From positions 1-27,910 of IMG/VR virus record IMGVR_UViG_3300025141_000576: DNA of 27,910 nucleotides; one strand, given 5' to 3'. This DNA is from a virus. The position numbers were made by a program, and so were the translations under genes. The notes under the pieces were generated by a model. The model saw only the letters and a program-made list of their open reading frames with translations, was not told the DNA's origin and searched no databases. Positions 21,083 through 24,535 of this stretch are shown here, piece by piece. Every line of letters starts with the position of its first letter. The stretch's first letter is position 1.

Positions 21083-21628
21083 TTATTTGTTTTTGTATAG
21101 TTTTAAGTATTCTTCCCTATTAAAGTTTCTAGGAAATTTTGCAGATGCCACCTTAGAGTGGAGTTTTATTTTGCTGAGAATTGGTTTTTTGTCTTTTTTC
21201 CAACGGGTTTTTGCTAGTTGTTTTTTCAAACTATTCAAATTTAATGCTGCAGTTGTTATAAGCTCTTCTTTTTCTCTTTTTGTCATTCTTTCAGATTTTT
21301 TTCGCTCTTGCTTTTCAGTTGGATTAATAGATCCTTTTAACTCGGGTACTTCTACTCCTTTGCGATATACGTTTCCATCTTTGTCAACAAACTCTTTCAT
21401 TAGCGTCCAACCTCTAGGTTTATCTGATTTTACATATGTTGATGTTTCTACTGGTCCAACTAATTCAGCCACACATTCTGTGCAGGTTGTTGATACAGTA
21501 TCTTCTCCACACTTAGACATTTGACCACACCTTTTACATTCCATAAATTTATATAATGCTCCTTCTCTTTCATTCCAAGCAGTACCTTTTCTATATTCTG
21601 TGTAGTATTCTATTTTTTCATCTTTCAT
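21083..21628 (-). CDS. Zinc-ribbon-containing unknown protein, 181 aa
   Basis: ATG at 21628 overlaps the previous stop by 4 nt (ATGA), with AAGGGA as SD. Four cysteines near residues 31-52 (C-K-R-C-G ... C-T-E-C) form a C-x2-C/C-x2-C zinc ribbon. The middle (residues about 64-100) reads like a small beta region (R-G-W-T-L-M-K-E-F-V-D-K-D-G-N-V-Y). The C-terminal 70 residues are strongly basic and helical (K-Q-E-R-K-K-S-E-R-M-T-K-R-E-K-E-E). The mix suggests nucleic-acid binding or a transcription-related adaptor, but no family is recognised. Confidence 0.75.
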   Translation of the reverse strand: MKDEKIEYYTEYRKGTAWNEREGALYKFMECKRCGQMSKCGEDTVSTTCTECVAELVGPVETSTYVKSDKPRGWTLMKEFVDKDGNVYRKGVEVPELKGSINPTEKQERKKSERMTKREKEELITTAALNLNSLKKQLAKTRWKKDKKPILSKIKLHSKVASAKFPRNFNREEYLKLYKNK

Positions 21629-22701
21629 AACAATCCCTTATTTCTTAGTTTGCCAATCATAACACGGGTAAGTTTACCTTGTTTTAATAACTTTGTATAA
21701 TATGCTTTATCTTTTTCTTTATATATCTTTAAATCTTTATCTTCTGGTTTTTCTGGTTTTTCTATATCATCTAATGCTATATCTTCATCTTGTAAAGGTA
21801 TAGGATATGGTGTATTAAATTCCATCCCGTCTGGTACTGACATTTTTACGGTTGGTTCTTTTACATACATTCCTGGTGGAGGAACAAAATCAGTACTTTT
21901 TCTTTTTATTTGAGCGAATGCCATATTGGCTGCAACAACAAGGGCTATAGCCAATGGGTCAAATACAAATATAATCATTAATAAGAACCAGTTAACAACT
22001 TGATTCATATCATAACCTGTAGTTTCTGCTAGATATTTAAGTGGTCCTAACTCTCGTTGGTCTTCATTGTCTACTTCCTTTTCTAATATTGCCATATCTG
22101 TTCTTGTGATAGAATCAGTTATTGCCGATAGTTTTGCGTTTATATCATTTCTATCGTTAAGGGTTCTAGCTAATTCATCTTGAAGCGCTCTTCTACTTGA
22201 AGATGAGGTTGTTGTTATCAATTGGCCAGATTCTTTATCTACATATTGAACCTGTGCTGGATTAGATAGTGATATTCTCAAATCAGAAATTGACTTTGTT
22301 AAACCTTCTTTTTCATATTTAATATCCTGTTTTGTTTCTTCAAATCTAACTTGCTTTTGTTGTAATATTGCAAGTGACTTATCAAGTAATTCTGACTGAG
22401 TTGCCGTTGATTGATATGCTCCAGATAAGAATCCATATATACCACCACTAGTTATAATCATAAGAACGAAACAGGCTATGGCTAAGTAGGCTCTTAACAT
22501 CTTGTTTATAGTATCCCAATATTGATACAATAGAGATGCAACGATTAACTTTGCAAATTCCAAAGAACCTGCCATTATAATTACCTGTAGACTGGCTCCT
22601 GCGAATAGCTTACTTAGTCCAAAAACCGAATAAAACGCTGCAGACCCTGATACAGCTAGTGCAGAAATTGCTATTAGTATTGGAAGAATTTTAGCTTTCA
22701 T
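21625..22701 (-). CDS. Four-helix integral membrane protein with long coiled coil, 358 aa
   Basis: ATG at 22701 (M-K-A-K-I-L-P-I-L-I) follows the 210-aa gene by 9 nt. Membrane helices are visible at about residues 5-29, 38-60, 70-95 and 236-262. Between the third and fourth lies a 130-residue charged, helical region (S-E-L-L-D-K-S-L-A-I-L-Q-Q-K-Q ... R-A-L-Q-D-E-L-A-R-T-L) typical of a coiled coil. After the last helix a Pro/Glu/Asp/Lys-rich cytoplasmic tail leads to a short helical end (Y-Y-T-K-L-L-K-Q-G-K-L-T-R-V-M-I). No enzyme motif is seen. I recall similar helix/coiled-coil proteins annotated only as hypothetical in marine T4-like phages. Roles might include lysis timing, superinfection immunity or membrane remodelling. 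Confidence 0.78.
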   Translation of the reverse strand: MKAKILPILIAISALAVSGSAAFYSVFGLSKLFAGASLQVIIMAGSLEFAKLIVASLLYQYWDTINKMLRAYLAIACFVLMIITSGGIYGFLSGAYQSTATQSELLDKSLAILQQKQVRFEETKQDIKYEKEGLTKSISDLRISLSNPAQVQYVDKESGQLITTTSSSSRRALQDELARTLNDRNDINAKLSAITDSITRTDMAILEKEVDNEDQRELGPLKYLAETTGYDMNQVVNWFLLMIIFVFDPLAIALVVAANMAFAQIKRKSTDFVPPPGMYVKEPTVKMSVPDGMEFNTPYPIPLQDEDIALDDIEKPEKPEDKDLKIYKEKDKAYYTKLLKQGKLTRVMIGKLRNKGLL

Positions 22702-22710
22702 AATAAATAA

Positions 22711-23343
22711 TTATAGTTTTTTAATTGAAAAGTGATAGGTATATAAAATAACCTCTTCTCCATCAAGAACATCTACAACATCTTCAGACTTAGATTTAAG
22801 TTCATTTCCATTCGTTTCAAATAGTTTTTGTATGTTATCTAGTACATCTTTATTTGTTGAACAAAGAGATAACATACCAAAACTTGTACTAACATTAACA
22901 GATGTTGGAGATAGATTTGCAGCCTTAAAATAGTCTGAATAGTTTAAAGATTCTTCTATTGATTCTCTAATACTTTCCCCTTTAGATAATCTTTCGACAT
23001 ATTTATCTAGTAGCTCCTTTGGGCAATTGTCAATCCAATCATTAAAAAAATCGATATCACCGTGGAATAGGTCTTCTTTATCTTCTTTTACCAATAGATT
23101 CCACAACACCCTTGTGACTATATCTTCAGCATCTTTTATTTCTTTATATAACGTTCTATTTGCTATATTGTTAAAATATTCTGTGAAGTCGGTTTTAAAT
23201 TTTTCAGTGGATATTGAATTAACCTCTATTTCTGTCAACGATTCAACATACGTTTGCATGTCTTCTTCAATATTATCCCAAAAATTAGAGGTGTGGTCTA
23301 ACACATCATCAATTTTCCACACATGTCTTTTTCCTATTCCCAT
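22711..23343 (-). CDS. Unknown acidic protein, 210 aa
   Basis: The frame is open further upstream through a TTG at 23367, but the first ATG is at 23343 (M-G-I-G-K-R-H-V-W-K-I-D-D). The longer frame would extend into the 3' region of the tmRNA coding piece, so the ATG is preferred; no clear SD is present. The protein is acidic and mostly helical (D-I-V-T-R-V-L-W-N-L-L-V-K-E-D-K-E-D-L), with a more mixed C-terminal third (S-T-S-F-G-M-L-S-L-C-S-T-N). There is no membrane helix or enzyme signature, and no family is recognised. It is the first gene after the tmRNA. Confidence 0.72.
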   Translation of the reverse strand: MGIGKRHVWKIDDVLDHTSNFWDNIEEDMQTYVESLTEIEVNSISTEKFKTDFTEYFNNIANRTLYKEIKDAEDIVTRVLWNLLVKEDKEDLFHGDIDFFNDWIDNCPKELLDKYVERLSKGESIRESIEESLNYSDYFKAANLSPTSVNVSTSFGMLSLCSTNKDVLDNIQKLFETNGNELKSKSEDVVDVLDGEEVILYTYHFSIKKL

Positions 23344-23516
23344 AATAATTTTAATGCCACCACCCAACCCAGCTGAACTTCTTTAGCTATCCGTGACGTC
23401 TCAGACGCGAATTTAAGAAGGTGAGTTCCTAATATACCTTCTTGGTATTTTATACCTCAAACCACCGAAGCTTTTACGATATGGCTTCTTTTTACCGTTT
23501 GCTTTGGGTACCTAAA

Positions 23517-23549
23517 TTAGGCAGCCATTGCTAGTTCAACTTGTTCGCC
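23517..23549 (-). other. tmRNA tag reading frame (GEQVELAMAA)
   Basis: Read from GGC at 23549, the frame is G-E-Q-V-E-L-A-M-A-A followed by TAA. The bases just before it (CATAACT) resemble the conserved sequence before the resume codon (TAGTC in E. coli). The A-M-A-A end fits recognition by ClpXP-type proteases. Tags beginning G-E and ending A-x-A-A are known from Bacteroidota. Confidence 0.8.
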
Positions 23550-23605
23550 AGTTATGCGTTGACCTTCCCTATATCCTTATCATCGTGTCAAATCCAGTCA
23601 CCCCC

Positions 23606-23624
23606 ATGTTGTTGTTCTATTTAG
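23606..23624 (-). other. Intervening segment between tmRNA acceptor and coding pieces
   Basis: Nineteen AT-rich bases separate the discriminator A of the acceptor piece from the first G of the coding piece. Known permuted tmRNAs have such a segment, which is cut out by tRNA-type end processing so that the mature RNA is two chains. The right-hand cut would be RNase P-like and the left-hand cut a 3'-end trimming; this is by analogy. Confidence 0.65.
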
Positions 23625-23687
23625 TGGAGGTGGAGGGTATCGAACCCTCGTCCAACAATGCAGCTAATATAAGTACTAGCAGTCATA

Positions 23688-23696
23688 TATAAATAT
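23688..23696. promoter_or_regulatory. TATAAATAT box at the 5' edge of the tmRNA gene
   Basis: A perfect plus-strand TATAAATAT lies immediately before the acceptor piece of the tmRNA, where its promoter would be expected. It also separates the tmRNA from the 79-aa gene upstream. Confidence 0.35.
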
Positions 23697-23710
23697 CGTT
23701 CTACTTGTAA

Positions 23711-23950
23711 TTATTCTATAATCTGAGCGTCTTTAATAGTTTGGCAAAGTAAATACTTATCTCCTTTGCGCAATACATGATCGCAGTGGTGGGATTCTTT
23801 CCACAACTTAAGTATCTGCATTGCCACCTGATCAGACGTTAAACCATATTTAGACTTAGTAATACCATATGTTAAAGGATCTATAGCATTAAAATTAATC
23901 TTTCTAATGACTACGTATGCTTTTCCTTTATTGTAAAATATTTTTCGCAT
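23711..23950 (-). CDS. Unknown protein, 79 aa
   Basis: ATG at 23950 (M-R-K-I-F-Y-N-K-G-K) has no clear SD. It is small and basic, with an H-H-C-D-H cluster near residues 54-58 (E-S-H-H-C-D-H-V-L) that might bind metal, and a K-Y-L-L-C-Q-T segment. It lies between Hsp20 and the tmRNA, preceded by an AGGTTATATA leader motif. It is not recognised. Confidence 0.65.
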   Translation of the reverse strand: MRKIFYNKGKAYVVIRKINFNAIDPLTYGITKSKYGLTSDQVAMQILKLWKESHHCDHVLRKGDKYLLCQTIKDAQIIE

Positions 23951-23986: not shown

Positions 23987-23996
23987 TATATAACCT
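23987..23996 (-). promoter_or_regulatory. AGGTTATATA leader motif before the 79-aa gene
   Basis: In gene orientation AGGTTATATA is followed by CAATAAATA, about 40 nt before the ATG at 23950. It overlaps the end of the Hsp20 gene and is one of four close copies in leader regions (the others are near 18419, 24489 and 25809). Confidence 0.4.
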
Positions 23997-24444
23997 ATTT
24001 AATTGTAATTGTTTTAGGCTTACTATCTGGGGAAACAGGTACTTCTAGTCGTAAAAGACCGTTTTCCATAGATGCCTTAATTTTTGTTAAATCAAACTTA
24101 GGACTAATCTTCCACCCTAAATGAAAAGACCTTTTTGCAATACCCTTATGGATATATTCTCCTGCGTCTTGGCTTGAATCATTAGATTCGATGGTTGGTT
24201 TAGTGTATGAAACCTTTAACGTGGTTCCATCCTCTGTAGAAAGATCGATGTCCTTCTTATTTAATCCAACTGCAGCTATTTCAAATATTAAGGCTTCTTC
24301 CGTATAGATAATGTCGACAGGATGGTTTATTTTCCTATCAACATTAGTCTCAAAAGCCGAAGCTTGATCGAAAAAATTCTTAAATAATAAATCAGTTGGG
24401 AATAATCTTGTGCCGAAAGGCGTGTTCACTCTTAGTGTTGTCAT
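23995..24444 (-). CDS. hsp20: Small heat-shock protein (Hsp20 / alpha-crystallin), 149 aa
   Basis: A longer frame starts at 24516, but the ATG at 24444 (M-T-T-L-R-V-N-T-P-F-G) with SD AAGGAG is the sensible start. Residues about 40-140 form an alpha-crystallin domain: H-P-V-D-I-I-Y-T-E-E-A-L-I-F-E-I-A-A-V-G-L, then K-D-I-D-L-S ... L-K-V-S-Y, G-I-A-K-R-S-F-H-L, and A-S-M-E-N-G-L-L-R-L-E-V-P-V. The C-terminal I-T-I matches the I-x-I/V motif used in oligomer assembly. Hsp20 genes are common in marine T4-like phages, where they are thought to protect or help fold virion proteins. It has its own leader with an AGGTTATATG motif and may be a single-gene unit. Confidence 0.93.
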   Translation of the reverse strand: MTTLRVNTPFGTRLFPTDLLFKNFFDQASAFETNVDRKINHPVDIIYTEEALIFEIAAVGLNKKDIDLSTEDGTTLKVSYTKPTIESNDSSQDAGEYIHKGIAKRSFHLGWKISPKFDLTKIKASMENGLLRLEVPVSPDSKPKTITIK

Positions 24445-24488
24445 AATAATCTCCTTAGATAATTTTAATTTGTTAAACTTAGTTTTAA

Positions 24489-24498
24489 CATATAACCT
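24489..24498 (-). promoter_or_regulatory. AGGTTATATG leader motif before hsp20
   Basis: AGGTTATATG in gene orientation lies about 45 nt before the Hsp20 ATG. TATATG could act as a -10-like element. The match to the other leader copies is strong in the first eight bases. Confidence 0.4.
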
Positions 24499-24499
24499 A

Positions 24500-24510
24500 C
24501 CGACCCGCAG
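24500..24510. repeat. Right arm of GC-rich inverted repeat flanking hsp20
   Basis: CCGACCCGCAG on the plus strand is the partner of 23963-23973. It lies next to the AGGTTATATG motif of the hsp20 leader. Confidence 0.4.
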
Positions 24511-24535
24511 TGCCAATTGTTATATAGAATAAATA

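Follow-up and report, generated by a model that had tools for sequence, protein, structure and literature searches.

A circularly permuted tmRNA gene without PK1 in a probable Bacteroidota phage

Permuted tmRNAs and the locus under study

Circularly permuted tmRNA genes have been described for three main bacterial clades as well as for mitochondria. The Rfam model tmRNA_permuted (RF04321) merges the models for the alpha (RF01849), beta (RF01850) and cyano (RF01851) forms. Two-piece tmRNAs are described as typically keeping both PK1 and PK2 (PMC3985003). Permuted tmRNA is already known in phages as well: in one survey it accounts for 53 of 133 distinct phage tmRNAs, nearly all of them from marine or aquatic phages, and the tmRNA of methylophage Melnitz was placed with the Alphaproteobacteria by its authors (PMC9004378).

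The gene discussed here is located on the minus strand (23686-23467) of a 27,910-nt stretch of viral DNA (IMG/VR record IMGVR_UViG_3300025141_000576, positions 1 to 27,910), referred to below as the window. It lies between a 79-aa ORF on its upstream side (23711-23950, minus strand) and a 218-aa ORF on its downstream side (22711-23367, minus strand), which belongs to no known family and has its likely start at the ATG at 23343; a 358-aa protein is encoded at 21625-22701 (minus strand). A gene for an Hsp20 small heat-shock protein (23995-24516, minus strand) is also found near the tmRNA, which places two protein-quality-control genes close together. RF04321 detects the tmRNA in the window with 63.8 bits (E 2.3e-10, cut-off 47), and ARAGORN calls a permuted gene (tmRNA*) with the tag GEQVELAMAA, while 200 dinucleotide-shuffled windows gave no tmRNA call. 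None of the separate alpha, beta and cyano models scores above its cut-off in the window; only RF04321 does. The comparison of covariance models suggested alongside the original prediction was run, and the one-piece form does not score better: the standard model RF00023 reaches 18.7 bits over the tmRNA locus and 34.9 bits in a truncated match to its T-arm half, both below the cut-off of 47, and a one-piece model of the locus was rejected. The original prediction was thus right in recognising a permuted gene, but it overlooked both the phage cases already reported (PMC9004378) and the absence of PK1.

It had also assigned the gene the interval 23370-23698, which does contain the tmRNA but is too wide, as its low end (23443-23368, minus strand) is an independent element, a conserved and pseudoknotted RNA within the 5' leader that precedes the 218-aa gene. 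This element is represented by 19 distinct copies (the window copy, L016:7243-7372, L020:839-968 and 16 more), in which GCGUCUGAGACGUC is invariant and a long-range pairing GAACUCU/AGAGUUC covaries and is 98% paired. It has no match in Rfam, an exact-pattern scan of IMG/VR found no copy outside the phage clade of the window, and single-sequence folding of the element was no better than that of shuffles. L016 and L017, two sister contigs, share 80-85% identity around the site, have an HD protein 99% identical to that of the window, and form a natural empty site (L016:7180-7420) from which the tmRNA is cleanly absent. Since both retain the downstream element, it does not belong to the tmRNA, and a single RNA spanning all of 23370-23698 was rejected.

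Architecture and conservation of the gene

The conserved core of the tmRNA extends from P2 to the downstream pseudoknot (23467-23686, minus strand, as are all parts below) and is supported by the RF04321 match, ARAGORN and covariation. The 3' (acceptor) piece comes first (23625-23685; sequence, models and covariation). It comprises the P2 3' strands (23685-23656), the T-arm GAGGG-UUCGAUA-CCCUC (23633-23649), the acceptor 3' strand CACCUCC (23626-23632) and the discriminator A at 23625; CCA is not encoded. An intervening sequence (ITS) of 19 nt follows (23606-23624), the removal of which is expected. The 5' (coding) piece then starts with the acceptor 5' strand GGGGGUG (23599-23605; ARAGORN and covariation). 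This order, with the T-arm and the 3' acceptor strand upstream of the 5' acceptor strand and 19 nt in between, is the one originally predicted. The acceptor strands (23632-23626 with 23605-23599) form seven pairs, including G3-U70, that join the two pieces. A D-loop remnant, ACUGGAUUUGAC, separates the acceptor 5' strand from the P2 5' strands (23560-23585), which pair with the P2 3' strands in three segments: P2a (23585-23581 with 23660-23656), P2b (23575-23568 with 23673-23666) and P2c (23564-23560 with 23685-23681). P2 is paired in 94-96% of cells, with double changes at 8 pairs. Both helices that had been predicted to form across the two pieces, the acceptor stem with its G3-U pair and P2, are therefore present and both covary. 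A 10-nt linker (23550-23559) leads from P2 to the resume codon of the tag frame GGC GAA CAA GUU GAA CUA GCA AUG GCU GCC UAA, encoding GEQVELAMAA (23517-23549), a tag with small or hydrophobic residues at its end. A small hairpin (GCCUA/UAGGU, 23510-23522; 94.9% of cells paired) covers the tag stop codon, and a PK2-like H-type pseudoknot (ACGGU/AUCGU and GAAGC/GCUUC, 23467-23498), with 6 pairs changed on both sides, follows the tag.

A PK1 between P2 and the tag is a typical, though not strictly defining, trait of two-piece tmRNAs and is absent here: P2 and the resume codon are 8-14 nt apart in 35 relatives, which leaves no room for it. The distance from G1 to the resume codon is 54-62 nt in all 53 genes with an automatically readable short tag, compared with 93-97 nt to the tag in flavobacterial standard genes, 82-89 nt in permuted genes of proteobacterial phages and 109 nt in an alpha-type gene. 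The loss need not abolish function, as single-stranded RNA can take the place of PK1 in E. coli tmRNA with tagging in vivo still efficient (PMC4236655). No description of a PK1-less form in Bacteroidota phages, or of its spread over unrelated phages, was found in the openly accessible literature that was searched.

In known phages, a BLAST search with the window tmRNA matched nothing beyond short T-arm stretches, some of them in ordinary tRNAs (L004), for which reason relatives were collected through neighbour proteins and sequence patterns. Neighbour proteins, among them the 358-aa protein by which the clade was found in IMG/VR, led to about 90 IMG/VR loci; at many of these the gene recurs at an identical position, its tag being GEQVELAMAA, GEQVEMAMAA or GEHVEMAMAA. 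Among 35 distinct sequences the proposed structure is paired in 95.5% of cells, against 41-48% in a control in which the partners were slid by 1-3 columns. Compensatory changes affect 17 pairs (shuffle mean 10.5) and 142 cells (shuffle mean 37.9), these counts being drawn from kindred sequences and not representing independent events. Covariation in the 35 relatives is seen in the acceptor stem, the T-arm, P2 and the pseudoknot; the second pair of the T-arm, for example, occurs as A-U, U-A, C-G or G-C. G3-U70 is invariant among 42 distinct sequences, in which the fifth pair of the acceptor stem (5-68), bridging the spacer, occurs as G-C, A-U or C-G.

The tag varies mostly at synonymous sites, and codons 7, 9 and 10 show synonymous variation only. 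Its stop codon is kept while alternating between UAA, UAG and UGA. Together with the synonymous-only changes at the three codons, this suggests that the tag is read. Several relatives for which ARAGORN placed the tag at 77-226 nt are mostly miscalls, the tag with a Gly start opening at 54-62 nt. Four permuted tmRNAs (L198, L213, L224 and L233), also miscalled by ARAGORN, have 37-aa tags that open 55-56 nt from G1 and end in AMAA, such as GTQIKSVKAGIFASLAAIRLLATETVATEESVYAMAA, and the 10-aa tag in the window resembles such a longer tag with an internal part removed.

The spacer is free in length and sequence, ranging from 15 to 213 nt among relatives. In L218, a member of the same clade, it holds an intact tRNA-Ala(UGC) gene (L218:3674-3748), and in the crAss-like cr114_1 (L250) an intact tRNA-His gene (L250:862-934). 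One case of tRNA-Ala in a tmRNA spacer has been reported, from a nominally archaeal MAG (PMC11915505). As an intact tRNA inside the tmRNA would otherwise be odd, the spacer is probably cut out, and cuts at the ends of the enclosed tRNA would suffice to part the two pieces of the tmRNA. We infer that the spacer is removed and that the mature RNA consists of two pieces, for which the spacer tRNA genes offer a direct test. In four relatives (L076, L055, L097 and L054), the spacer is 67-68 nt long instead of the usual 17-20 nt and contains repeated UAUAUUCA..UAUAAU motifs.

With these features, the locus is very probably a functional, phage-encoded, circularly permuted tmRNA gene. Two other readings of the locus can be weighed against it. 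Since tRNA-like pieces can confuse both ARAGORN and covariance models, the gene could in principle be an ordinary one-piece tmRNA whose true 3' half is encoded elsewhere, in which case the T-arm close by would be a stray piece of a tRNA. However, the only T-arm and acceptor that match the 5' piece are those upstream of it, which covary with the 5' piece across the 42 sequences, and with the low score of the standard model this leaves such an arrangement a negligible probability. The absence of PK1 could instead point to a decayed, non-functional tmRNA remnant or to an inhibitory decoy comparable to the tmRNA of mycobacteriophage DS6A, which lacks a CDS (cf. PMC11915505). Against this stand a full tag frame under coding constraint and the covariation of all helices, which make a remnant or decoy improbable.

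Proposed function and the phage host

If the gene is functional, as is preferred here, the acceptor half, the short spacer and the coding half would be made as one transcript; a scan for promoters and terminators gave nothing clearly above shuffles. Host tRNA enzymes would cut out the spacer, with RNase P acting at G1 and with RNase Z or exonucleases and CCA addition acting at the acceptor end, resulting in two RNAs that stay together through P2 and the seven pairs of the acceptor stem. The host would alanylate the acceptor with G3-U70, after which the RNA, together with host SmpB and EF-Tu, would enter ribosomes stalled on broken mRNAs. No SmpB gene was found in the 19 phage records searched, so tmRNA function would depend on SmpB of the host. 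Translation would resume at GGC after the short single-stranded linker that remains without PK1, and addition of GEQVELAMAA would mark the protein for ClpXP-type proteolysis. The AMAA ending also occurs in tags of some hosts (GEDNYAMAA, GENNYAMAA) and the GE start is as in the host tag GENNYALAA, so host proteolysis should accept the phage tag. During infection, the phage RNA may supplement the one-piece tmRNA of the host when mRNA turnover strands many ribosomes. Candidate benefits to the phage are ribosome recycling when mRNA is degraded, or replacement of host tmRNA lost to defence. If this holds, phages maintain a ribosome-rescue RNA of their own and PK1 is dispensable in nature.

The host is likely to be a member of the Bacteroidota, probably a flavobacterium. 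The nearest relatives of the baseplate (gp6-like) protein are found in Microcystis phage Mel-JY01 (49%), an uncultured jumbo phage (42%) and Flavobacterium phage immuto (41%). In the phage collection the HD protein matches only immuto phages, and one of the two matches in the genome collection lies in a Flavobacteriaceae MAG. These matches lend indirect support to the earlier assignment to a Bacteroidota phage. Mel-JY01 (L012, PP395634.1) is the nearest named relative of the clade, and its stated cyanobacterial host may merit checking. The description of the phage as T4-like, on the other hand, is only loosely right: gp6/gp25-type baseplate wedge genes (phrog_219, phrog_261) are present, but capsid, terminase and replication genes of the T4 type are not within the 27.9-kb fragment. 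A standard tmRNA scores above the cut-off in 94 of 100 Flavobacteriaceae genomes, which bears out the expectation that the hosts have one-piece genes.

Distribution, origin and relation to known tmRNAs

Genes of the PK1-less type are not confined to the clade of the window. A pattern for the Bacteroidota-type tRNA-like domain retrieved 41 and 2 stretches, and one that looks for a closely spaced Gly resume codon retrieved 61 stretches, with one-piece genes in at least two of them (L220 and L222). The search as a whole gave no fewer than 63 distinct genes of this permuted type from Bacteroidota-linked phages, comprising the immuto-like marine clade, crAss-like phages, Chryseobacterium phage MA9V-3 and a prophage-like region. 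The named members (crAss-like cr50_1, cr10_1, cr53_1, cr60_1, cr114_1 and cr125_1, and MA9V-3) are annotated in GenBank only as 'tmRNA/SsrA' or carry no annotation, and the MA9V-3 paper lists a tmRNA with its permutation unmentioned. Like the window gene, the crAss-like and MA9V-3 tmRNAs have the PK1-less layout and a Gly resume codon, with 59-62 nt from G1 to the tag, but their spacers (59-213 nt) and tags (for example GNNFVTDYTAIGA and GNVIDINKYVAKLEVAA) differ. The known hosts of these phages make the PK1-less form testable. In crAss-like phages, RAGATH-22 (L005:854-1020), RAGATH-9 (L250:338-505) and RAGATH-20 (L252:431-532) RNAs precede the permuted tmRNA by a few hundred bases. No permuted tmRNA was found in Mel-JY01, LR756508 and immuto, the nearest relatives with a name.

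Among 395 Bacteroidota genomes, a permuted match above the cut-off was obtained in a single one, a count that may miss cases as few candidates were scored per genome. This match (L138) is the prophage-like region; it is situated in a 1.6-Mb contig beside tRNAs and phage replication-type genes, and the genome that holds it also has a standard tmRNA of its own, with the tag GEDNYALAA.

The original prediction had left a choice between a separate origin of the permutation and transfer from another lineage, which was the right question, and the evidence favours a separate, phage-borne lineage of Bacteroidota type. A separate permutation in a Bacteroidota-type tmRNA gene is favoured, rather than proved, by the UUUGAC signature, the unencoded CCA and the lack of a match to any of the clade models, as opposed to the beta matches of proteobacterial-phage genes. 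It is somewhat more likely than not that such a tmRNA became permuted, lost PK1 and now circulates as a virus-borne lineage among unrelated Bacteroidota phages (crAss-like, immuto-like and MA9V-3-like phages and prophages), with no sampled Bacteroidota chromosome using a permuted gene of its own. The permuted gene form could then arise and spread in viruses. Alternatively, the genes could have been transferred from alpha-, beta- or cyanobacterial permuted genes, with the tRNA-like domain and the tag adapted to their hosts afterwards, an explanation that contests the separate origin only and not the identification as permuted tmRNA. Permuted tmRNAs in phages of several proteobacteria (PMC9004378) render phage-to-phage transfer plausible, and adaptation to host SmpB and AlaRS could mimic Bacteroidota-type features. 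The tRNA-like domain of the phage genes is also nearly as similar to alpha-type (0.81) as to flavobacterial genes (0.82), a comparison that rests on about 50 informative positions, too few to settle the origin, and that does not alone tell the two histories apart. However, UUUGAC is present in 13 of 13 clade genes and 17 of 17 flavobacterial genes but in none of 3 alpha-type genes. Genes of proteobacterial phages match the beta model at 93-104 bits, whereas none of the three clade models scores above its cut-off here, and PK1 is absent in all readable Bacteroidota-phage members while the others have a stretch of PK1 length. Transfer is accordingly judged the less likely history, though a serious one, and separate permutation is preferred.

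In comparison with the two-piece tmRNAs of RF04321, the Bacteroidota-phage genes share the order of acceptor piece, spacer and coding piece, the G3-U70 pair, P2 across the pieces, the tag ORF and the pseudoknot after the tag. They differ in the missing PK1, in tags starting with G-E/K/N, in having no clade model above cut-off, and in the UUUGAC domain and unencoded CCA, as in many flavobacterial genes. The permuted tmRNAs of proteobacterial phages that were tested, unlike that of the window, match RF01850 and have the longer distance from G1 to the tag given above; these beta-type permuted tmRNAs, several of them unannotated, belong to Stenotrophomonas, Acinetobacter and Alcaligenes phages (L253, L256, L257 and L258). 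Methylophage Melnitz resembles the window phage in being a marine tailed phage with a permuted tmRNA (PMC9004378). The standard tmRNA of Flavobacteriaceae (RF00023) shares with the window gene the signatures GACUGG.UUUGAC and GGACGAGGGUUCGA..CCCUCC and the GE- tag start, but it is a one-piece RNA with PK1 in the 93-97 nt before its tag, which is usually of 9 aa (GENNYALAA).
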